Shown here piece after piece: positions 6,222-41,106 of a stretch of DNA of 64,000 bases. Source of the stretch: Moritella marina ATCC 15381. Lineage in GTDB: Bacteria > Pseudomonadota > Gammaproteobacteria > Enterobacterales > Moritellaceae. The notes under the pieces are model-generated. The model was not told the origin of the DNA. It did not search any database and saw nothing but the letters and a program-made list of their open reading frames with translations. The position numbers were made by a program, and so were the translations under genes. Every line of letters begins with the position of its first letter. The stretch's first letter is position 1. The stretch is from contig NZ_CP044399.1 of assembly GCF_008931805.1 (NCBI RefSeq), positions 1,860,001 to 1,924,000 of the forward strand, written 5' to 3'.

Positions 6222-7031
6222 TTAATCTGTTGCCACTTTTTTATCTCGCGTACTGATCCACTGTGATATTTGTGCGTACGCCATCACCGACATGATCGGG
6301 AATAAACTCGCAAAAGCAATAAGACCAAAACCATCGATAATAGGATTACGCCCAGGTACCGTTTCAGCTAATCCAAGTCCCAACGCCGCAACTAAAGGAA
6401 CCGTTACCGTCGAGGTTGTCACACCACCTGAATCGTAAGCCAAAGGAATAATTAATTTAGGCGCAACAAGCGTTTGCAAAACAACGACGACATAACCCGC
6501 CATGATGTACCAATGAATTGGATCACCAACAACAATCCGATAACAACCGAGTGAAATACCGATAGCTACGCCAAGCGCAACAGATAAACGTAAACCCCAA
6601 ATACCAATTGAGCCACCTGATACTTCATTCGCTTTAATCGCCACGGCAATCAAAGACGGCTCTGCAATCGTAGTAGCAAAACCAATGAGGAAGGCAAATA
6701 GATATACCCAATAATAATCAGTCCAAACAAGTTCACGGACACTTTCCGTCACGACTTCGACGCTATTAACACTCGCCAGAAAAGTAGGATCTGTTAATTG
6801 CTGCGCCATCAAACGACCCAGCGGAAATAGCGCCCACTCCAAGCCAATTAAAAACAGCGATAAACCGACTAATACCCACAAAAAACCCATTAGTACCCGA
6901 CCTAAATTAGGTAATGGCTTGCGAATAACTGCAAATTGAAAACCAAATAAGATCGCCGCAATCGGTAGTACATCGTGAAATGTAGTGACAATAGTCGAAC
7001 CAATTTGCGCTAACATATCAATAAAGGTCAT
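6222..7031 (-). CDS. DUF1538-type integral membrane protein, second paralogue
   Basis: A very hydrophobic 269-residue protein with about seven membrane segments. Two motif blocks are shared with the paralogue just upstream: [18 protein letters not shown] (about residues 115-132) and [20 protein letters not shown] (about 198-217), then [19 protein letters not shown]. The resemblance between the TTxAEPxLI and GGVTTSTxTVP segments hints at an internal inverted repeat as in secondary transporters, which is my inference. The ATG overlaps the upstream stop by four bases (ATGA). The family has no established function that I know of. A transport role gated by the downstream PII-like and CBS proteins is the simplest reading. 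Confidence 0.8.
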
Positions 7032-7768
7032 AGCATCACCATTCCATAAGCCATTACAAAGATCATCGGATTAAGCGACGCTAACGCGATAAGACCAAAA
7101 CCATCAATCATCGGGTTTCGACCTTTGATAGAAGATGCCAGACCAACACCAAGTGCAGTCACTAACGGCACTGTGATCGTCGATGTGGTAACACCGCCCG
7201 AATCATAAGCAATACCAATAATCTCAGGCGGAGCAAACACCGTCATGATCACCACCAGCACATACCCGCCAATGATGAACCACTGTAATGGCCAGCCTTT
7301 GATAATACGCAATACGCCCAGTGCGATAGCAATACCAACACTCAGCGCAACACTCATTCTTAAGCCTTGAGCATAGTCATCCATCGCGACTTGCGTTGTG
7401 CCAATAAGATCACCACTGGCTGCGACTCTCGCCGCTTCCGCTGCCACCGCAATTAATGCTGGTTCGGCCACCGTAGTACCAAAACCAAGACAAAATGCAA
7501 AAATCAATAACCAGCCAACGCTACCTTTACGCGCAAACGCATGCGCCATTGATTCACCAATAGGAAATAACCCTTGTTCTAGGCCATGAATAAAGAAGGT
7601 GAGTCCTAACAGTACAAACAGCACACCAATAAGCAGCTGGCTGACATTCGGCAATGGTTGTTGAATAACCACTAACTGGAAGAATAAGATCACAATAATA
7701 ATGGGAGCAAGATCCCTGATACTGCCCAACATAAATTTTAGTAGGGTTTTAAACGTGTTAACCAACAT
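7028..7768 (-). CDS. DUF1538-type integral membrane protein, first paralogue and first gene of module
   Basis: Paralogue of the next gene, with the same ordered motifs: [61 protein letters not shown] and [19 protein letters not shown]. The longest open frame starts at a GTG (7792), but the ATG at 7768 is preceded directly by AAGGAGG, so I start there (246 residues). That also fits the predicted transcription start at about 7790 downstream of the FNR-type box. The two paralogues probably form a heterodimeric or pseudosymmetric membrane unit, since their reading frames overlap by four bases. Confidence 0.8.
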
Positions 7769-7796
7769 AGCCTCCTTGATTATATTAATCACGCGG

Positions 7797-7838
7797 ATAC
7801 TAGCCTACTGAAAAAACTAAAAAATTGATCTAAATCAA
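7797..7838 (-). promoter_or_regulatory. FNR-type anaerobic promoter in front of the DUF1538/PII/CBS module
   Basis: TTGAT-CTAA-ATCAA at 7825-7838 is a perfect match to the FNR/ANR consensus TTGAT-N4-ATCAA. On the minus strand a TAGTAT hexamer at 7802-7797 resembles a -10 element. A start seven bases further, at 7790, would place the dyad centre (7831.5) at -41.5, exactly the class II activator position of FNR. The start codon at 7768 then leaves a 22-base leader that includes the SD. Confidence 0.7.
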
Positions 7839-7945
7839 TGAGATTGGAACTAACCCCATAGAGGTGCACTTAACCTTAATAAAACCTTTGGTTAACCTTG
7901 ACATAACAATACAAAACAATAAACATCAATAAAACAGCTGAAGAG

Positions 7946-9598
7946 CTATTCATTAAATCTTACGTGGGTATAAATTTCATCTAATTCAGCCACGCTACAT
8001 TGCTGCCAATGCGGCGGTAACTCACACCCTAAGCATTGTTCTAACTCTACGGATAAATAAACAAAAGATAATGAATCAGCATTTAAACTATGGAAGGTTT
8101 TATCGGGGGACAGTTCAGTTAAATTTAATGCATCAATAAATAAGTGGCTAATACTCTCCCACTCCCTCTCATTTAATTCTAAAATATTTGAAATAGAACA
8201 TAATGTACGCTTAAAAAACCCAACGCTCGGCTTTTTATAGGCATGATTTGCAATCGTCATAAAATCATATTTACCATTAGAGAGTAATGGAATGTCATCA
8301 AATAGAGTGATGATGAATTTATCACGTGGTAATGAATAATAGTCGCTTAGTCGAGTGAGTAACTGCCCTTTATCAATATCACCGTGACTGGATTCCAAGG
8401 CAATAACAATCGCTTTATCGTTACCTGTGACTGCACTTTGCGGATAATCTGTTTTAACGACACTTTGCACATCATCGAGATTAATGCGTAACCCAAATAA
8501 TTTTACAAATCGTTTCGTACGGCCAACTAAATAGAAAAGATCATGCTGCGTTCGACAAGCAATATCACCAGTAAATAATACCTCCGGTGTCTCATCTTCA
8601 GCGAGTCCAGCAATTGAGTTAGCATAACCCATCATCACGTTCTTACCACGATAAACAAGTTCACCAGATTTATCTAGCGCTTTAATCTCGTGACCTTCGT
8701 CATCAACTATTGAGAGTTCACCCTGCGGAATAGCACGACCGATGGAATTTGGAAAGTCAATCGCCAGGTGTGGAGGCAAATAAGAAATCCTCGGCGAGGC
8801 TTCTGTTTGACCATACATGACAAAAAAATCAATCCCATTAGCTTGCGCTTGTAATGCATATTCTTTGACTAAAAAACCTTCAAGTTTACCGCCTGCTTGT
8901 GTGATATAACGTAGACTCGGGTAAGCTTTAAAATCAAACTTAGTTTTAAGCAAAGCTTCAAAAGTATAAGGAACACCAGCAAAACTGGTCGCTGAATAGG
9001 TCACTAAATCATGCCAAAAACTTGCATCTAGTACACCGTGTGCCGTAAATACAGTACATGCGCCGGCTTGTAAGTGGGAGTGTAAAACAGATAAACCATA
9101 TGCATAATGTAATTTTAGGTGAGCCAGAGCAATATCATTTTCAGTCAAATTCAAATATTCGACAATCGATTCTGTATTTGACTGGATATTCGTCGCACTT
9201 AGCTTGACGAATTTAGGGGTTCCCGTCGTACCAGACGTCGACAATAACAGCGTTAAATCAGGATGTAGCTGATAAGTACACTGTGAGTGCTGCGTAATTT
9301 TACCAAAGCCATTTATCAGCAGATTAGGATTATAACGATTAATAAGTTCTATCGACTTATCACTACTAAAGTTATCCATAAGGTAGACAACCTTATTACT
9401 TCTTAAACAAGCTACATAACTAACCACCGACAAAATAGAATTTTTTGATTCAATAAATACTAATTCTTTATTATTTCCGAGTTGCACGGATAGCACATTG
9501 GCTTGATGCTCGAGGTCCATGTAGGTTATACGCTCACCGCTGACTGCATCAATGACTGCAATATTATCTTGAAACCGGTCTAAGCCATTAAAGAACAT
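7946..9598 (-). CDS. Acyl/aminoacyl-AMP ligase with C-terminal carrier-protein domain
   Basis: A 550-residue didomain protein. The adenylation part has the P-loop LLSTSGTTGTPKFVK near residue 122, YGQTEASPR near 260, LFTGDIA near 340, GRTKRFVKLFGLRINLDDVQ near 360 and the end-loop lysine in LLSNGKYD near 435. The last 80 residues form an acyl/peptidyl carrier domain with attachment serine in LNADSLSFVYLSVELE (about S509). It therefore activates an acid as an adenylate and loads it on its own phosphopantetheine arm. ATG at 9598 follows AGGGG at a normal distance; the longer frame from GTG 9604 does not. No condensation or thioesterase domain is present. The acyltransferase gene 30 bases upstream is the likely recipient partner. 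Substrate unknown. Confidence 0.8.
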   Translation of the reverse strand: MFFNGLDRFQDNIAVIDAVSGERITYMDLEHQANVLSVQLGNNKELVFIESKNSILSVVSYVACLRSNKVVYLMDNFSSDKSIELINRYNPNLLINGFGKITQHSQCTYQLHPDLTLLLSTSGTTGTPKFVKLSATNIQSNTESIVEYLNLTENDIALAHLKLHYAYGLSVLHSHLQAGACTVFTAHGVLDASFWHDLVTYSATSFAGVPYTFEALLKTKFDFKAYPSLRYITQAGGKLEGFLVKEYALQAQANGIDFFVMYGQTEASPRISYLPPHLAIDFPNSIGRAIPQGELSIVDDEGHEIKALDKSGELVYRGKNVMMGYANSIAGLAEDETPEVLFTGDIACRTQHDLFYLVGRTKRFVKLFGLRINLDDVQSVVKTDYPQSAVTGNDKAIVIALESSHGDIDKGQLLTRLSDYYSLPRDKFIITLFDDIPLLSNGKYDFMTIANHAYKKPSVGFFKRTLCSISNILELNEREWESISHLFIDALNLTELSPDKTFHSLNADSLSFVYLSVELEQCLGCELPPHWQQCSVAELDEIYTHVRFNE

Positions 9599-32983: not shown

Positions 32984-33125
32984 ATAACCAGTTAATTATT
33001 TAATTTCCCAATGTTAACAGGTTGATGCATAATTGGGTGAAACTTATTAATCTACCTTATGCGCTCTAGGCGACATAAGTATGCCAACAACTCAAGGCCA
33101 GCCTCTTGTCGAAGGATCACAAGTA

Positions 33126-33962
33126 ATGACAGAAAAACATACGTATTATTCACCCCAAGGTGGTCTGCCACCGCAAACACAGCTACTTTCTGATCGTGCA
33201 GTTCTAACAGATGCCTACGCAATTATCCCTAAACGTGTCATGACTGATATCGTTACAAGCTTTTTACCATTTTGGGAAAACATGCGTATGTGGGTTATTG
33301 CTCGCCCATTAAGTGGTTTCTCTGAAACGTTTTCACAATATATTGTTGAGATTGCCCCTCAAGGTGGATCAGATAAACCAGAGCTTGATCCGAATGCTGA
33401 AGGTGTTTTGTTTGTCGTCGCGGGCGAGATGGATATTACCATTGAAGGTGAACCGCACCATATGACAGAAGGTGGTTATGCTTTCATTCCACCGGGCTGT
33501 AATTGGACTGTTCATAACAACAATGACCAACCTGTACGTTTTCATTGGGTGCGTAAAGCATATCAAGCGGTTGAAGGTTTAGCTTTACCAGAAGCATTTG
33601 TTACTAACGAAAACGATCTAGACCCTATCTATATGCCTGATACAAATGACGGCTGGGCAACAACGCGTTTTGTTGATGGCACCGATATGCGTCATGACAT
33701 GCATGTAAACATCGTGACTTTCCAACCTGGTACTGTTATTCCATTTGATGAAACGCATGTAATGGAACATGGTTTGTATGTATTGGAAGGTAAAGCTGTT
33801 TATCACTTAAACCAAAATTGGGTAGAAGTTGAAGCGGGTGACTTTATGTGGCTACGCGCCTTTTGCCCACAGTCATGTTACGCCGGAGGCCCTGGTCCAT
33901 TTCGTTACTTGCTATATAAAGACGTTAACCGTCATATGCCTTTTATTCGTCCAACGAATTAA
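33126..33962 (+). CDS. allE: (S)-ureidoglycine aminohydrolase (bicupin, AllE/YlbA-like)
   Basis: Bicupin that releases ammonia from (S)-ureidoglycine, giving ureidoglycolate in allantoin breakdown. The second cupin has the Mn-ligand pattern ETHVMEHGLYVLEG near residue 200 (Glu-x-His-x3-His) and the later PQSCYAGG Gln, matching E. coli AllE (ETHVQEHG, LQAGYG). The first cupin holds LFVVAGEMDITIEGE. I prefer ATG 33126, with AAGGATCACAAGTA upstream, over ATG 33081; this gives 278 residues. No allantoinase or allantoate amidohydrolase gene is near, so it is a stand-alone gene or has another substrate. Confidence 0.8.
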   Translation: MTEKHTYYSPQGGLPPQTQLLSDRAVLTDAYAIIPKRVMTDIVTSFLPFWENMRMWVIARPLSGFSETFSQYIVEIAPQGGSDKPELDPNAEGVLFVVAGEMDITIEGEPHHMTEGGYAFIPPGCNWTVHNNNDQPVRFHWVRKAYQAVEGLALPEAFVTNENDLDPIYMPDTNDGWATTRFVDGTDMRHDMHVNIVTFQPGTVIPFDETHVMEHGLYVLEGKAVYHLNQNWVEVEAGDFMWLRAFCPQSCYAGGPGPFRYLLYKDVNRHMPFIRPTN

Positions 33963-34446: not shown

Positions 34447-35166
34447 CTACTCGCGTTTCGCGACAGTCTGCTTTAAAAACATCAACAGCCACTGGGCAAT
34501 CAGTTTATCATCGGGTTGATGATTTAATGACGTCATCGCAGCATTGATTGTATCAACAGGGATAATATCGCGACGCTGTTCCATCAATGCCGCAGAATAT
34601 GACCGAGTAAACTCAGGGTGTCCTTGTAAACCCAGAAAGTGTTCGCCCACTTGGAACATGCTATAACGGCAGAAATCATTACTCAGTAATATGCTAGCAT
34701 CAGCGGGTAATTTACAGACTTGATCTTGATGGCAAACCACCAGCGCAATATTGTCTTGCTTTGGCTGCATCCAGCTGTGCTCGACAAGCATATCAGCATG
34801 GGCAATGCCGACGCCCCACCCTCGGGGGCTTCTTTCCACTTGTCCACCTAACGCTTTCGCAATCATTTGATGACCAAAACAAATACCCACCAAGCCCTTC
34901 TTTGCATCATAGAGAACCCGGGTAAAATCAGCTAACTGGCGGATCCAAAGATCGTCATCATTCACTCCCCATTTACTGCCACTGCAAATATAAGCGTCAC
35001 ATTCATCCACATGCTGTGGAAAATGACCATCAATCACCCGATAAAAATGCAGTTCTAATGTGCTGTCGACTTGTTGAAGCAAGGTCTCAAACATAGCGGC
35101 ATAATTACCAAAATCAGCGTGTAAACTAGCCCGTACATCATCACATTGCAGAATACCAAGTTTCAT
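34447..35166 (-). CDS. Class I glutamine amidotransferase-like hydrolase, last gene of the gamma-glutamylation cluster
   Basis: This 239-residue protein is a free-standing GATase1 domain: nucleophile cysteine in GLVGICFGHQMIAKALGG near residue 95, histidine in FLGLQGHPEFTRSY near 185 and a downstream acidic residue for the triad. It resembles the hydrolases that cut gamma-glutamyl amides (functionally like PuuD or IpuF) more than a synthase subunit, since no acceptor subunit is encoded nearby. In this operon (ligase, aldehyde dehydrogenase, alcohol dehydrogenase, amidotransferase) its likely job is to release glutamate from an oxidised gamma-glutamyl product. AAGG lies just before the ATG. 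Confidence 0.75.
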   Translation of the reverse strand: MKLGILQCDDVRASLHADFGNYAAMFETLLQQVDSTLELHFYRVIDGHFPQHVDECDAYICSGSKWGVNDDDLWIRQLADFTRVLYDAKKGLVGICFGHQMIAKALGGQVERSPRGWGVGIAHADMLVEHSWMQPKQDNIALVVCHQDQVCKLPADASILLSNDFCRYSMFQVGEHFLGLQGHPEFTRSYSAALMEQRRDIIPVDTINAAMTSLNHQPDDKLIAQWLLMFLKQTVAKRE

Positions 35167-35200
35167 CGCCTTACCCCCACCTTATAATGAGTACTTCCGT

Positions 35201-36373
35201 TTATAGGTCGCCATGCACCGCAGATAAACAAATATCAGCATACTGCTGCGCATTAAGTATTATCGGATTACCGCTAGCAGAAGGATCTTGCTCCGCCATT
35301 GCAGCGATTTCCACGACACGCTCAGCATCAATACCGATCTCACCAAGGGAGTGAGGAATATCGAGTTGCTTACGTAACGTTAATATCCACTCTAGAAAGC
35401 TATCAAAGTCCGTATCTTCCAGTTCTAAATAACGGCTCAAACGAATTAGTTTCATCTCAATGGCACTGCGATTCGCCTTCAATACATACGGCATCAAGAT
35501 GGCGTTTAATAACCCATGATGACTATCATAAAGCGCGCCAATAGGATGAGCAAGTGCATGCATGCCACCAAGTCCACGTTGGAAAGCTGTTGAGCCCATT
35601 GTTGAAGCGGTCATCATGTATGCTCTTGCCTCAAGATCATGACCATCTTCAACTGCACGTGGTAGGTAGTCTTTAATCAATCGAATGGATTCCAATGCGA
35701 TGCCTTCTGCCATAGGGTGATAACCCGTAGCACAATAGGCTTCCAAAGCGTGGGACAAGGCATCCATCCCCGTCGCCGCAGTGAGTTGAGCAGGTAACTC
35801 GACACTCAATTGGGGATCTAAAATCACAATAGCAGGCAACATGTTCGGATGAAAAATAATGCGTTTGACATGATGTTCGCTGTCCGTAATCACCGAAGCA
35901 CGCCCTACTTCTGATCCCGTACCCGATGTGGTCGGTACAGCAACAACCGGCGCCATGCCTTGGATATTAACATGCGACCAGTTGTCAGCGACATCTTCAA
36001 AATCCCAAATAGGTCGTTCTTGTCCTACCATCAAGGCCACCGCTTTACCGGCATCCAATGCCGAACCGCCACCAAAAGCGATAACACCATCATGCTCACC
36101 ACGCTTATAGGCACCCACCCCAGCACAAATATTCTCTCCCGTTGGATTGCCTTTAATCTGTGAAAAAATACCACATCTTAATCCTACTTGTTGGCAATGC
36201 TCGATAGCAGATTTGACCATGGATAAGTCTGCAAGCCCGGGATCGGTGATCAGTAATGGCGATGTCATACCCAATTCAATACAGGTATTCGGCAGGTCTT
36301 GGATACGACCAATACCGACGCGAATCGCTGTGGGATAGTGCCAATTAGCTGTAAATTGATTGAGTTCTATCAT
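35201..36373 (-). CDS. Iron-containing (group III) alcohol dehydrogenase
   Basis: 390 residues. NAD binding: GVIAFGGGSALDAGKAVALM near residue 97-116 and VPTTSGTGSEVGRASVITD near 147. Metal ligands: DALSHALEAY near 204-214 (Asp and His) and GMHALAHPIGALYDSHHGLLNAIL near 268-290 (two His). Family members oxidise or reduce primary alcohols, including 4-hydroxybutyrate and propanediols. Next to an aldehyde dehydrogenase and a glutamine-synthetase-like ligase, an omega-hydroxyl on a glutamylated amine is a plausible substrate. SD AAAGGTAGG before the ATG. Confidence 0.88.
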   Translation of the reverse strand: MIELNQFTANWHYPTAIRVGIGRIQDLPNTCIELGMTSPLLITDPGLADLSMVKSAIEHCQQVGLRCGIFSQIKGNPTGENICAGVGAYKRGEHDGVIAFGGGSALDAGKAVALMVGQERPIWDFEDVADNWSHVNIQGMAPVVAVPTTSGTGSEVGRASVITDSEHHVKRIIFHPNMLPAIVILDPQLSVELPAQLTAATGMDALSHALEAYCATGYHPMAEGIALESIRLIKDYLPRAVEDGHDLEARAYMMTASTMGSTAFQRGLGGMHALAHPIGALYDSHHGLLNAILMPYVLKANRSAIEMKLIRLSRYLELEDTDFDSFLEWILTLRKQLDIPHSLGEIGIDAERVVEIAAMAEQDPSASGNPIILNAQQYADICLSAVHGDL

Positions 36374-36397
36374 GACGCCTACCTTTTACAATTTATG

Positions 36398-37792
36398 CTA
36401 AAGCTTAATGTGGAATGATTTTGGCCGTGTTAGCGACTCATAACCTAATGCAGATAAAGTACAGCCGCGCCCTGAGTGCTTAACCCCAGTCCACGCTAAG
36501 CCAGGGTCGAGATAATCACAGCGATTGACAAAAAAAGTACCGGTATCGAGTTGCTCACCCAGGGTAATGGCCGCCTCTATATCTTGTGTAAATACCACCG
36601 CTGTAAGACCAAATGCCGAATCATTCATCAGCGCAATGGCTTGTTCATCATTGTCGACTTTCATCACACCAACCACAGGACCAAAACTTTCTTCGGTCAT
36701 TACCCGCATTTGATGATTAACCTGCGTTAATAGCTGTGGCGCAAGATACGCGGTACCGATTTCATCAAGTGGAAAGTCTTTTGCATCAATGTGCGCAGTC
36801 GCCCCTTTAGACAGAGCATCTTGGATCTGCGAACGAACCAGAGCAGCCCCAGACGCTGTCACCAAAGGGCCTAATGTTGTATTGATATCATCAGGACGTC
36901 CGAGTTTATACTTATTGACCAGCTCGACAGCCTTGCTAATAAATTCGTCAAATACACAACTATTAACATAGATGCGCTCAATGCCACAGCAAGATTGACC
37001 AGAGTTGAAAAAGGCACCATCAATGCAAGTGGCAACAGCGTGGTCAATATCGGCATCAGCGCGAACATACGCAGGATCTTTACCGCCGAGTTCTAAACCT
37101 ACCCCAATAAAACGTCCACTAGCAGCTTGCTCAATCATGTCACCACCAGCAACCGAGCCAGTAAACGCCACATAATCAATGCGACTGTCCTTTATGACTG
37201 TTTGAGTATCGACATGACTTAAGTGTAGATACTGGAACACACCTTCGGGTAGCTCAGCTTGTTCAAACGCCTTAAACAACTGCTCTGCGCATAATGGCGT
37301 TTGTTTAGAATGCTTTAATACCACACTATTACCAGCCATGATGGCCGGAATGATAGTGTTTATCGAAGTCAGGTAAGGATAATTCCACGGCGCAATAACA
37401 AAGGCAGTACCGAGTGGTTCACGCTTTATATAGCGAATAAATCCACTTAATTCTGGTAGATTAACTGGTGCTAAAGCCTCTGCTGCCACATCAATCATAT
37501 ATCGCGCCCGCTCTGCTAGACCTACAACTTCACCGCTGGCATATTGAATTGGCCGTCCCATCATCCAACATAATTCAGTGGCGATCTCATCTGTATTTGC
37601 CACCAAAGCATCGACCATTTTATGGCAGATCGCTGCACGTTCTTTTAGCGCCACCTTACGCCAATGTGCTTGCGCGATGACCGAGGCTCGTAAGCTATTT
37701 TGAATGTCTTCACTGCTTGCTAGATCGCGTTCTACGTAAACGGAATTATCTATGGGTGAACGCGTTTGCTGTATCGGCTTGTTGCTCGTCAT
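36398..37792 (-). CDS. NAD(P)-dependent aldehyde dehydrogenase of the gamma-glutamylation cluster
   Basis: A 464-residue ALDH. Cofactor segment APWNYPYLTSINTIIPAIMAGNSVVLKHS at about 143-171, catalytic Glu in GLELGGKDPAYV near 241, catalytic Cys in FFNSGQSCCGIERIYV near 275, and MTEESFGPVVGVM near 365. Closest in style to succinate-semialdehyde or gamma-glutamyl-aminobutyraldehyde dehydrogenases. It starts 14 bases after the ligase gene, and TAGGGAG serves as SD. It would oxidise the aldehyde made by the neighbouring alcohol dehydrogenase. Confidence 0.88.
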   Translation of the reverse strand: MTSNKPIQQTRSPIDNSVYVERDLASSEDIQNSLRASVIAQAHWRKVALKERAAICHKMVDALVANTDEIATELCWMMGRPIQYASGEVVGLAERARYMIDVAAEALAPVNLPELSGFIRYIKREPLGTAFVIAPWNYPYLTSINTIIPAIMAGNSVVLKHSKQTPLCAEQLFKAFEQAELPEGVFQYLHLSHVDTQTVIKDSRIDYVAFTGSVAGGDMIEQAASGRFIGVGLELGGKDPAYVRADADIDHAVATCIDGAFFNSGQSCCGIERIYVNSCVFDEFISKAVELVNKYKLGRPDDINTTLGPLVTASGAALVRSQIQDALSKGATAHIDAKDFPLDEIGTAYLAPQLLTQVNHQMRVMTEESFGPVVGVMKVDNDEQAIALMNDSAFGLTAVVFTQDIEAAITLGEQLDTGTFFVNRCDYLDPGLAWTGVKHSGRGCTLSALGYESLTRPKSFHIKL

Positions 37793-37806
37793 GGATAAGG
37801 TACTCC

Positions 37807-39177
37807 CTAGATAATTTCAAAGTAACGTTCTAATTCCCAATCAGTTACCTGTTTTCTAAATTCGCGTTCTTCCCACTCACGGGTAGCAGCATAGTGCGCA
37901 ACAAACTCTTGTCCGAACAACTCTTTGGCTGCTTCAGAACGTTTCAATTTACGCGCTGCGTCAAACAAGGTGCGTGGTAAAGATAAGGCTTCAGGATGAT
38001 CTTGCTCATAAGCATTACCAGTCACTTGCGCATAAGGTTCTAATTGCTGCTCTATACCCATCAGACCGGATGCTAATGCCGCAGCAAGCGCCAGGTAAGG
38101 ATTTGCATCAGCAGAACCAAGACGGTATTCAATGCGCTGAGATTTAGCCGACCCTGGGATCACCCGCAATGCTGTGGTGCGGTTTTCAACCCCCCAAGTG
38201 GCATCAAGCGGTGCCCATAATCCGGGCACCATACGGCTATAACTGTTTACCGTAGGCGCAATCATCGCTAAAAATTCCGGCATGTATTTTTGCTGGCCAG
38301 CAAGGAAGTGACGCTGAGTGTCGCTCATATTGTATTTATTATTAGGTTCATGAAAGAGCGATTTACCGCTTTTATCGGTTAACGAAATATGAATGTGACC
38401 ACTTTGCCCAGGCCAGTCGCTTGACCACTTCGCCATAAAAGTCGCCATTAAATTATTACGCTGTGCCCAGACTTTAATGAAGGTTTTAAATAGCGCCGCT
38501 TTATCCGCAGCCGCTTGCGCATCATCATAAGCGATTGCGGCTTCTAATACGCCAGGGCCTGTTTCGGTATGTAAACTTTCTAGTGGGAAGTCCATGGCTT
38601 CACCAAGCCCCATAATTTGATGATGTAGTTCGGCATGTACTGAGTTACGGAGCATTGAATAACCAAAGAAATCGGGCGTCAGTGGTGTTAAGTTTTTATA
38701 ACCTTTGTCACGAACCGACTCTGGGGTTTCCTTAAACATGAAGAATTCATACTCAAATGCAGCGCTAACCACAAAGCCCATACGCTCTGCGCGTGCGAGT
38801 ACCCGACGTAATGTGCCACGAGGACAGACGGCTTCGGCATGGTCACAGAACTCAGCAATGAACAGCAACATATTACCTTCGTCAGGTAATTCACGACAAG
38901 TATCAGGTAAGATCCGCACTGGAGCATCGGGGTAGCCCGTATGCCAGCCTGTGTATTCAACATTATCGTAAAGTTGATCTTTGGCATCCCAGCCTAAAAC
39001 CACATCACAAAACGAAAAACCACTGTCGAGAGAGCAAAAGAATTTTTCCTTGCTCATGTACTTGCCACGCATGATACCATCGGCATCAAACAAACCGACT
39101 TTGATATGAGTTAAACCACGTTGCTCGATAATTTGCTTGGCATCGTTAACGGTTTTTACTGCTCTGGGACTAAACAT
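37807..39177 (-). CDS. Glutamine synthetase-like gamma-glutamyl-amine ligase (PuuA/IpuC-like)
   Basis: 456 residues with the catalytic GS fold: AAFEYEFFMFKE near 137, TETGPGVLEAA near 205, GQSGHIHISLT near 257, NSYSRMVPGLWAP near 315, NRTTALRVIP near 333 and RIEYRLGSADANPYLA near 350. The C-terminal adenylylation motif of GlnA-I is missing. Such proteins (PuuA, IpuC, GlnA3/4) link glutamate to amines such as putrescine, isopropylamine, alaninol or ethanolamine at ATP cost. AAGGATG precedes the ATG. Upstream of it on the same strand are MerR and EamA genes, probably regulator and transporter of the pathway. Confidence 0.85.
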   Translation of the reverse strand: MFSPRAVKTVNDAKQIIEQRGLTHIKVGLFDADGIMRGKYMSKEKFFCSLDSGFSFCDVVLGWDAKDQLYDNVEYTGWHTGYPDAPVRILPDTCRELPDEGNMLLFIAEFCDHAEAVCPRGTLRRVLARAERMGFVVSAAFEYEFFMFKETPESVRDKGYKNLTPLTPDFFGYSMLRNSVHAELHHQIMGLGEAMDFPLESLHTETGPGVLEAAIAYDDAQAAADKAALFKTFIKVWAQRNNLMATFMAKWSSDWPGQSGHIHISLTDKSGKSLFHEPNNKYNMSDTQRHFLAGQQKYMPEFLAMIAPTVNSYSRMVPGLWAPLDATWGVENRTTALRVIPGSAKSQRIEYRLGSADANPYLALAAALASGLMGIEQQLEPYAQVTGNAYEQDHPEALSLPRTLFDAARKLKRSEAAKELFGQEFVAHYAATREWEEREFRKQVTDWELERYFEII

Positions 39178-39290
39178 AATACATCCTTATATTACTGAAC
39201 CGATTAAGGTTTCGTTTAATAATCAGTGATCGCATTATTCTTAGTATAGGGAGAGTAATTCTATTGTGTCGGCTAAAGTCCATAAACCCG

Positions 39291-39806
39291 TTAAATTAGT
39301 CGCCGAATTTTAGCCACTTCTTCCGCATCAATGTTTAACGACTCTAGAAACTCTTTATGTGCATCAGGCTCCATCAATTCAAACTGCTTGTGCCAATTGG
39401 TCATCGCTGCGTCATCAAATCCAGCACTTTTCATGATGCCAACCCAACGCGCTTTCGTCAGCTGGTTCTTGGCTAACAATGTAGGCTGTTCCAGTAGCAT
39501 CACAATGGCCTTTTGTTGTTGGCGTAATGATTGGATCTCTTTTTCTAGTGCATTAAATTGGTTATGTAACGTTTGTTCTTGCTTAATGTCATCATCACGC
39601 TCGAGCAGAGGAATAATATCTTTAATCGACAAGCCAAACGAACGATAAGACATAATAGATTCTAAGCGCTTTTGTTCTTTGTCACCGTACCAGCGATAAC
39701 CATTGTCACTGCGGCAGCTCGGTAATAACAAACCGGCACGTTCGTAATAAAGTATCGTAGTACGCGATACATGATAAGCCTTTGCCAATTGAGTCACTGT
39801 TAACAT
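39291..39806 (-). CDS. MerR-family transcriptional regulator
   Basis: 171 residues. The winged HTH is LTVTQLAKAYHVSRTTILYYERAGLLLPSCRSDNGYRWY at the N-terminus, followed by a coiled-coil dimer helix (KQEQTLHNQFNALEKEIQSLRQQQKAIVMLLE) and a helical C-terminal domain with SAGFDDAAMTNWHKQFE. No MerR metal cysteines, so an organic ligand is likely. It overlaps the EamA reading frame by seven bases and precedes the ligase-dehydrogenase genes by 113 bases, which fits local regulation of both. GAGGGGTCT is the SD. Confidence 0.85.
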   Translation of the reverse strand: MLTVTQLAKAYHVSRTTILYYERAGLLLPSCRSDNGYRWYGDKEQKRLESIMSYRSFGLSIKDIIPLLERDDDIKQEQTLHNQFNALEKEIQSLRQQQKAIVMLLEQPTLLAKNQLTKARWVGIMKSAGFDDAAMTNWHKQFELMEPDAHKEFLESLNIDAEEVAKIRRLI

Positions 39807-40699
39807 AGACCCCTCTTCTGCTTTTGTTTAGCACGTCGGTTCACCCATAAAGGGATCACAGCACTTAATAAAATAATGACCACCCCACATAACGCCATTG
39901 TGTTTGGTTGTTCAGCAAACAACCAGTAACCAAATAATAATGAATAGATTATTTTGGCATACTCGACATTCGCAATCACATTCGCTTCAGCTAATTTATA
40001 AGCGCTGATACCTATCCACTGTGCAATCGAAGATATGACCCCAACAAGGATAAGCAACAATAACGTTTCCCCGTTTGGCCACTGCCACGACATCAAGCTT
40101 GGCATTAATGAAATTAAACCAACAAACACGGCTTGATACGATAGAAGAACGACTTTTGGCACGGTTTTAGACATTTTTCTCACACAGACAACTGCGGTCG
40201 CCGCTCCTAACGCCCCCGTTAAACCGAGTAATACGTACTTAAAACTGCCTTGCTCAAAACTCGGTTGTACGACGAGCATGACACCAAAAAAGCCCACCAA
40301 GATAGTGATAAGACGTATTGTTCCAACTTTTTCAGATAGAAACAGGTTGGAAATAAAAGCAACAAACAATACTTGTGTGAACCCTAACGCAGTCGCATCT
40401 GCAAAAGGGATATTACTCAAGGTGAGAAAACCACAGTACAGCGCAAAGAACGCCCCCAATATCCTAAATAAATGTAGTTTAATACATGTAGGCTGGCGTA
40501 ATAGCTCGCTATTTTTAACAATGGCAGGCAGTAATAGAAGAATAAAAACAAGTTGCCTGAAAAATAATATCTGAAATACATCAATTGATTCATTCAATAT
40601 ACGCACAAGCACGCCAACAAAAACGAATAACGCTGTGGATATCAATGCCAGCGATATGCCTTTCACGCGCGGCGATAGCTGATTTAAAGTATTCTGCAT
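39800..40699 (-). CDS. EamA/DMT-superfamily membrane transporter
   Basis: A 299-residue transporter with ten predicted helices arranged as two EamA repeats: GISLALISTALFVFVGVLVRI to NLFLSEKVGTIRLITILVGFFGVMLVVQP, and ALGAATAVVCVRKMSKTVP to YWLFAEQPNTMALCGVVIILLSAV. Such proteins move amino acids, nucleobase derivatives or drugs. Its frame runs into the MerR gene (7-bp overlap), so the two are co-transcribed. Role in the amine cluster is inferred from this. Confidence 0.85.
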   Translation of the reverse strand: MQNTLNQLSPRVKGISLALISTALFVFVGVLVRILNESIDVFQILFFRQLVFILLLLPAIVKNSELLRQPTCIKLHLFRILGAFFALYCGFLTLSNIPFADATALGFTQVLFVAFISNLFLSEKVGTIRLITILVGFFGVMLVVQPSFEQGSFKYVLLGLTGALGAATAVVCVRKMSKTVPKVVLLSYQAVFVGLISLMPSLMSWQWPNGETLLLLILVGVISSIAQWIGISAYKLAEANVIANVEYAKIIYSLLFGYWLFAEQPNTMALCGVVIILLSAVIPLWVNRRAKQKQKRGLC

Positions 40700-40824
40700 G
40701 ATGACGGCTCATATTCATTGTTAATTAGCGTATCAGAATAAAGCCTACACCTGTAGACGGGTAAAGCAGAAATTTATGGATAGTCTTAATGGTTATGCAG
40801 GGGCTGTATTTTTAATCAGGCAAA

Positions 40825-40899: not shown

Positions 40900-41106
40900 T
40901 TAAAGTGCTACGATGTTTTCAGCGTTAGGACCTTTTTGACCTTCGCCTACTGTGAATTCTACTTTCTGGCCTTCAGTAAGGGTACGGAAACCTTCACTTG
41001 AGATAGCGCTGAAATGTGCGAATACATCTGGACCATTTTCTTGCTCGATGAAACCAAAACCTTTAGCTTCGTTAAACCACTTAACTGTACCTTGAACTTT
41101 AGACAT
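40900..41106 (-). CDS. cspA: CspA-family cold shock protein
   Basis: A 68-residue single-stranded nucleic acid-binding OB-fold protein. RNP1 is KGFGFIEQ and RNP2 is DVFAHFSAI, with the usual KWFNEAKG start and NVxAL-type end. It acts as an RNA chaperone. Gene and length are typical. The spacer upstream is long, as in cold-shock genes with extended leaders. AGGATATTATT precedes the ATG. It has its own terminator. Confidence 0.95.

Follow-up and report, generated by a model that had tools for sequence, protein, structure and literature searches.

Conversion of ethanolamine through gamma-glutamylethanolamide and gamma-glutamylglycine to glycine and glutamate is an already published route, described for Chromohalobacter, Streptomyces and Phaeobacter (PMC6529630, PMC9397018, PMC10132767). 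In these studies GlnA4 of Streptomyces makes gamma-glutamylethanolamide in vitro (PMC6529630), and the steps after ligation are predicted or inferred from proteomics (PMC6529630, PMC9397018, PMC10132767). The pathway families of C. salexigens and S. coelicolor are PF00120, PF00465, PF00171 and PF05013 (PMC9397018). The published layout in Phaeobacter sp. MED193 is GGAH, EtoVWX, ETAGA, GAADDH and GETADH, and Phaeobacter EtoX is an ethanolamine binder (Kd 7.9 uM), as is its C. salexigens homologue (PMC10132767). Here we describe a four-gene cassette in a 64,000-nucleotide stretch of the Moritella marina ATCC 15381 chromosome (the window; the host genome comprises 2 contigs and 4.76 Mb) that is likely to serve the same pathway, with a ligase and a hydrolase of other descent.

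We propose that this cassette is an operon for the breakdown of ethanolamine without cobalamin, via gamma-glutamyl intermediates, a reading that we hold with good though not complete confidence from comparison of the genes and their neighbourhoods. In this model a glutamine-synthetase-like ligase would use ATP to couple glutamate to the amine of ethanolamine, forming gamma-glutamylethanolamide, the hydroxyl of which would be converted by an iron-containing alcohol dehydrogenase (ADH) to the aldehyde of gamma-glutamylacetaldehyde. An aldehyde dehydrogenase (ALDH) would then produce gamma-glutamylglycine, and a free class-I glutamine amidotransferase (GATase) would cleave the gamma-glutamyl bond to yield glycine and recycled glutamate. 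We infer every reaction, and ethanolamine as the substrate, from the observed gene set, catalytic residues, gene order, dehydrogenase clades and association with transporters. The initial annotation had likewise seen an operon for gamma-glutamylation of an amino alcohol, in which the substrate is ligated, oxidised from alcohol through aldehyde to acid and released. The operon is real, with contiguous minus-strand genes whose order recurs across relatives, and on the comparative evidence this chemistry is the best reading. The four genes span 34447-39177 on the minus strand, with intergenic gaps of 14, 24 and 34 bases, and are transcribed in this order:

37807..39177, minus strand: glutamine-synthetase-like ligase, predicted gamma-glutamylethanolamide synthetase, here called type A (PF00120, 343 bits)
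36398..37792, minus strand: aldehyde dehydrogenase, predicted gamma-glutamylacetaldehyde dehydrogenase (PF00171, 399 bits)
35201..36373, minus strand: iron-containing alcohol dehydrogenase, predicted gamma-glutamylethanolamide dehydrogenase (PF00465 and PF25137)
34447..35166, minus strand: free class-I GATase, predicted gamma-glutamylglycine hydrolase (PF00117)

The catalytic residues that were checked, by alignment and motif, are preserved in all four enzymes. The ligase, one of two Gln-synt_C proteins encoded in the host genome together with glnA, retains the metal, glutamate and ATP residues except at the N264 position, as in other amine ligases. At its ammonium site the alignment places W321 at the position of GlnA E327 and leaves Y179 without a counterpart, and an Asp aligns with GlnA D50 in a part where the alignment is uncertain. 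The same kind of pocket change has been described for GlnA4 and PauA7, where it makes room for amines (PMC6529630). The ligase scores well under the cut-offs for GlnA (TIGR00653, 216 bits against 429) and for gamma-glutamylputrescine synthetase (NF045547, 194 bits against 650), and under the NCBIfam cut-off for type III glutamine synthetase also. By these comparisons it is predicted to lack an ammonia-specific pocket and is not a canonical glutamine synthetase. It is 40% identical to IpuC, 31% to Csal_0679 and 30% to the Puu ligase, and its predicted structure (pLDDT 79, pTM 0.86) recovers no more than the glutamine synthetase fold, with residues 309-321 (the flap) and 58-81 below pLDDT 50. 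Cys268 of the ALDH aligns with the catalytic Cys302 of PuuC, and the ADH metal ligands D204, H208, H272 and H286 align with those of FucO. The GATase carries the triad motifs Cys96/His183/Glu185. Its best match to a protein of solved structure is to gamma-glutamyl peptidase 1 (E 7e-27), ahead of GMP synthetase subunits (3e-9), which fits hydrolysis of a gamma-glutamyl bond; in NCBIfam it matches generic amidotransferase families only, below cut-off.

Scanning GTDB genomes gave 80 related loci, many of which stop at contig ends, mainly from Gammaproteobacteria with some from Desulfobulbales. The ADH is present in 74 of these loci and the ALDH in 72, the ligase, ALDH and ADH occur together in 69, and all four genes in 45. 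In Moritella the order ligase-ALDH-ADH-GATase is the same in all 11 genomes, and the window ligase is 92% identical to that of M. dasanensis. Such recurrence of gene order is far beyond a chance cluster. Moritella sp. PE36 (L127/L004) carries two tandem copies of the GATase gene at the cassette's end. At another related locus (L246 in G169, 6226-9064), a 61% ligase and a 53% ADH have a class III aminotransferase-like open reading frame (ORF) upstream, and an ALDH was not found.

The dehydrogenases tie the cassette to the published pathway. Among 398 Pseudomonadota genomes searched, EtoX was found in 26 and relatives of the window ADH (E<=1e-90; 54 matches) in 53. Of these matches, 44 have a type-A or type-B ligase or EtoX nearby (34 by comparison with ligases and EtoX already identified, 10 more by a type-B ligase recognised in their surroundings), 7 adjoin the ALDH, 1 is near a permease and the ALDH, and 2 stand alone, so that hardly any member of this ADH clade occurs outside such operons; in turn, this ADH is found no more than 12 kb away from 20 of the 26 EtoX genes. 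Two kinds of operon surround ADH and EtoX: type A, the kind found in the window, and type B, which has a Csal_0679-like ligase and, when complete, the order FGase - EtoX or permease - ligase - ALDH - ADH. The two window dehydrogenases are 49-59% identical to those of operons with the Chromohalobacter/Phaeobacter layout: the ADH is 49-58% identical to type-B enzymes against 29-32% to FucO and EutG, and the ALDH, the relationship of which was judged by identity and not by a tree, 50-59% against 31% to PuuC. In the ADH tree the enzymes of both operon kinds fall together, apart from FucO and EutG, whereas in the ligase tree A and B are separate on long branches, with A joining IpuC (SH-aLRT 81); the deep joins of both trees are weak because these are quick trees with long outgroup branches. 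Type-B ligases are about 58-74% identical to Csal_0679 (PDB 5dm3) or its relative 11zs, whereas identity between these two proteins and the window ligase is only 31-32%. Since both dehydrogenases recur in operons of the Chromohalobacter/Phaeobacter layout, the substrate is probably an amino alcohol, most likely ethanolamine. The structure 11zs, deposited from Brucella melitensis as a "glutamine synthetase", groups with the type-B ligases and is 74% identical to ligases of FGase-ligase-ALDH-ADH operons (L302/L303); by this grouping its true product may be gamma-glutamylethanolamide and not glutamine.

Ethanolamine itself is suggested by the transporters. In 41 of the 80 loci an ethanolamine permease or EtoX is encoded no more than 9 kb from the ligase. 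An APC permease homologous to that of Moritella PE36 accounts for 19 loci, and the TRAP ethanolamine binder EtoX for 23. The PE36 permease is encoded directly upstream of the ligase and scores 559 bits with the ethanolamine permease equivalog TIGR00908 (cut-off 382). The only close solved relative of an EtoX representative is 4uab/4xf5 (E 2e-156; next best 3e-18), of which we take 4uab to be Csal_0678 with ethanolamine bound. As ethanolamine transporters of two unrelated families thus adjoin about half of the relatives, and the ADH and ALDH are shared with operons of the published layout, the amino alcohols offered by the initial annotation (ethanolamine, alaninol or 3-aminopropanol) narrow to ethanolamine as the probable substrate.

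The Csal_0678/0679 system of Chromohalobacter salexigens and that of Phaeobacter sp. MED193 comprise the same four reactions as we propose for the cassette, and their transporter family, EtoX, also stands beside relatives of it. However, the window ligase is 31% identical to theirs and in a separate clade, the host is without EtoVWX, and a PF00117 GATase takes the place of the PF05013 FGase. The cassette is therefore a variant and not a plain member of the pathway, its novelty lying in a ligase lineage from the IpuC side and a hydrolase of another fold family. The GlnA4 pathway of Streptomyces coelicolor (SCO1611-SCO1615) shares the ligase, dehydrogenase, aldehyde dehydrogenase and amidohydrolase steps and, GlnA4 being likened here by its description, the altered ammonium pocket, but its hydrolase SCO1615 is of the FGase family and its regulator is EpuRI. 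The isopropylamine locus of Paenarthrobacter aurescens TC1 pTC2 holds the nearest named ligase, IpuC, with the same W at the E327 position, as well as a class-I GATase; it differs in substrate and in having a P450, a ferredoxin and an SDR in place of the ADH, a gene set with no representative among the window genes. The Puu pathway of E. coli follows the same logic of ligase, oxidation, ALDH and gamma-glutamyl hydrolase, yet uses the amine oxidase PuuB where the cassette has an alcohol dehydrogenase, and similarity between PuuD and the cassette GATase is undetectable by BLAST. Eut (EutBC) acts on the same probable substrate; EutB is absent from the host genome by a search whose control was positive in E. 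coli.

Several observations weigh against the proposed pathway. The ligase is only about 31% identical to Csal_0679, so a shared substrate rests on context, and related ligases pair the ALDH with other oxidation enzymes, so that the ligase-ALDH pair alone leaves the substrate unfixed. Thus on a Rhodobacteraceae M382 plasmid (L151, 4783-15004) a 53% identical ligase and a 56% identical ALDH adjoin a class III aminotransferase, an FGase and a polyamine ABC transporter, which suggests that the enzyme of the first oxidation can be swapped while ligase and ALDH are retained; on a Rhizobium leguminosarum plasmid (L152, 2561-9741) a 55% ligase and a 54% ALDH accompany a GMC oxidoreductase, with a gamma-glutamyl-GABA hydrolase and an aminoethylphosphonate transaminase also nearby. 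Furthermore, the host genome has no recognisable Eat permease (best family match 43 bits) and no EtoX, in searches aimed at these two carriers; ethanolamine could be supplied there by diffusion, EutH, EamA or internal lipid turnover. Finally, nothing on the type-A cassette itself, including assays of its enzymes, was found in the open-licence literature, subscription papers lying outside that search.

The missing Eat and EtoX, and a ligase that resembles IpuC, which makes gamma-glutamylisopropylamide in Paenarthrobacter, more than it does Csal_0679, would also suit the same chemistry with L-alaninol, 1-amino-2-propanol or 3-aminopropanol as main substrate, leading to gamma-glutamylalanine or a similar product. 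We consider this improbable, as the transporters beside the relatives belong to ethanolamine families and this ADH/ALDH pair is replaced in the Ipu locus by a P450 and an SDR. The M382 locus, with its aminotransferase and polyamine transporter, could instead speak for a Puu-like polyamine pathway in which the oxidase or transaminase is encoded elsewhere and the ADH is incidental. The initial annotation had argued from the lack of an amine oxidase or transaminase, and indeed the window cassette contains neither, while homologues of PuuB, PuuD, PuuE and PuuP occur within 9 kb of the ligase in none of the 80 loci, against 74 with the ADH. Together with the near confinement of the ADH clade to these operons and the shortfall of the ligase against the gamma-glutamylputrescine synthetase cut-off, this renders a polyamine route very unlikely. 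Iron-containing ADH and ALDH families have broad substrate ranges, and the GATase has only its generic sub-cut-off matches, so the dehydrogenases might act on free alcohols and aldehydes beside an unrelated glutamine-type pair of ligase and GATase. Of the three alternatives we give this one the least credence, given the tight co-conservation of all the genes with ethanolamine transporters over many taxa and the induction of the homologous Phaeobacter operon by phosphoethanolamine, as seen by proteomics (PMC10132767).

Upstream of the proposed ethanolamine cassette, transcription on the minus strand runs from EamA, whose reading frame shares 7 bases with that of MerR, through MerR and a 113-base gap to the ligase:

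39178..39290, minus strand: the cassette's own promoter and leader in the MerR-ligase gap (conserved block and promoter hexamers)
39291..39806, minus strand: MerR-family regulator, probable regulator of EamA (PF13411)
39800..40699, minus strand: EamA-family transporter, probably a separate module (PF00892)
40735..40765, minus strand: MerR-type promoter/operator of EamA-MerR (motif match)

The initial annotation correctly placed MerR and EamA upstream, but the pair is no constant part of the locus, being present in 2 of the 11 Moritella genomes: close orthologues of EamA (74%) and MerR (81%) exist in only one other (G006), where the pair follows the GATase at the opposite end of the cassette. 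In other genera MerR relatives stand mostly alone or beside EamA, without the cassette. The operator consists of TTTACC, a 19-base spacer containing CTACAGGTGTAG, and TATTCT; the motif precedes most related MerR or EamA genes, and the 19-base hexamer spacing is kept in both Moritella genomes. Scanning the whole genome with TTGACCYGTCTAYANNTRTAGGSTT, at up to 3 mismatches, gave one site in the host, before EamA (control pattern 0), and likewise a single site before EamA in G006. The ligase has promoter hexamers of its own (CCGACA-18-TATACT at 39272-39243), and a TCACAAC...CTCCCTATACTAAGAATAATGC block before it is shared by 9 of the 11 Moritella genomes, among them that of the window. Because the only operator precedes EamA and the ligase has a conserved promoter block to itself, EamA and MerR's own gene are the most likely targets of MerR, and EamA-MerR is probably a separate, self-regulated module. 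In G611 (L327, G611:C2:1017732) a MerR-type operator lies before an EamA homologue (59%) that is remote from the MerR gene, an arrangement suggesting that MerR and EamA form a regulon in relatives.

A role for MerR and EamA as regulator and transporter of the cassette was rejected as unproven in view of their occurrence in 2 of 11 Moritella genomes, on opposite sides of the cassette, the single operator before EamA and the distant G611 operator. Only in the window genome could transcription of EamA-MerR continue into the cassette. The two genomes with the pair nonetheless both have it next to the cassette, though at different ends, and a functional link may exist. More speculatively, and as a doubtful proposition overall, one shared dehydrogenase pair would have been combined with ligases of two different origins and likewise with hydrolases of two origins, and the self-regulated MerR-EamA module would have joined the cassette at different ends in two Moritella species, to act in the absence of the permease as an alternative amine carrier or an overflow valve.

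Adjoining the cassette on its other side is an (S)-ureidoglycine aminohydrolase gene (33081-33962, plus strand; 531 bits against a cut-off of 338). Between EamA and a homocysteine methyltransferase gene lies a cold-shock-protein-like small ORF of 68 amino acids (40900-41106, minus strand), followed by a terminator-like hairpin.

Ethanolamine, a constituent of membrane lipids, is widely available as a nitrogen source, and its use has been followed by means of markers such as EtoX (PMC10132767) or EutBC. The type-A ligase lineage, with relatives in Moritella, Colwellia, Shewanella, Pseudomonas, Halomonadaceae, Legionella and Desulfobulbales, is labelled plain glutamine synthetase in the plasmid records examined and would partly escape EtoX-only or Csal_0679-based searches. 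Type-A and type-B ligases would furthermore offer a clean pair for studying the evolution of substrate choice in this family.

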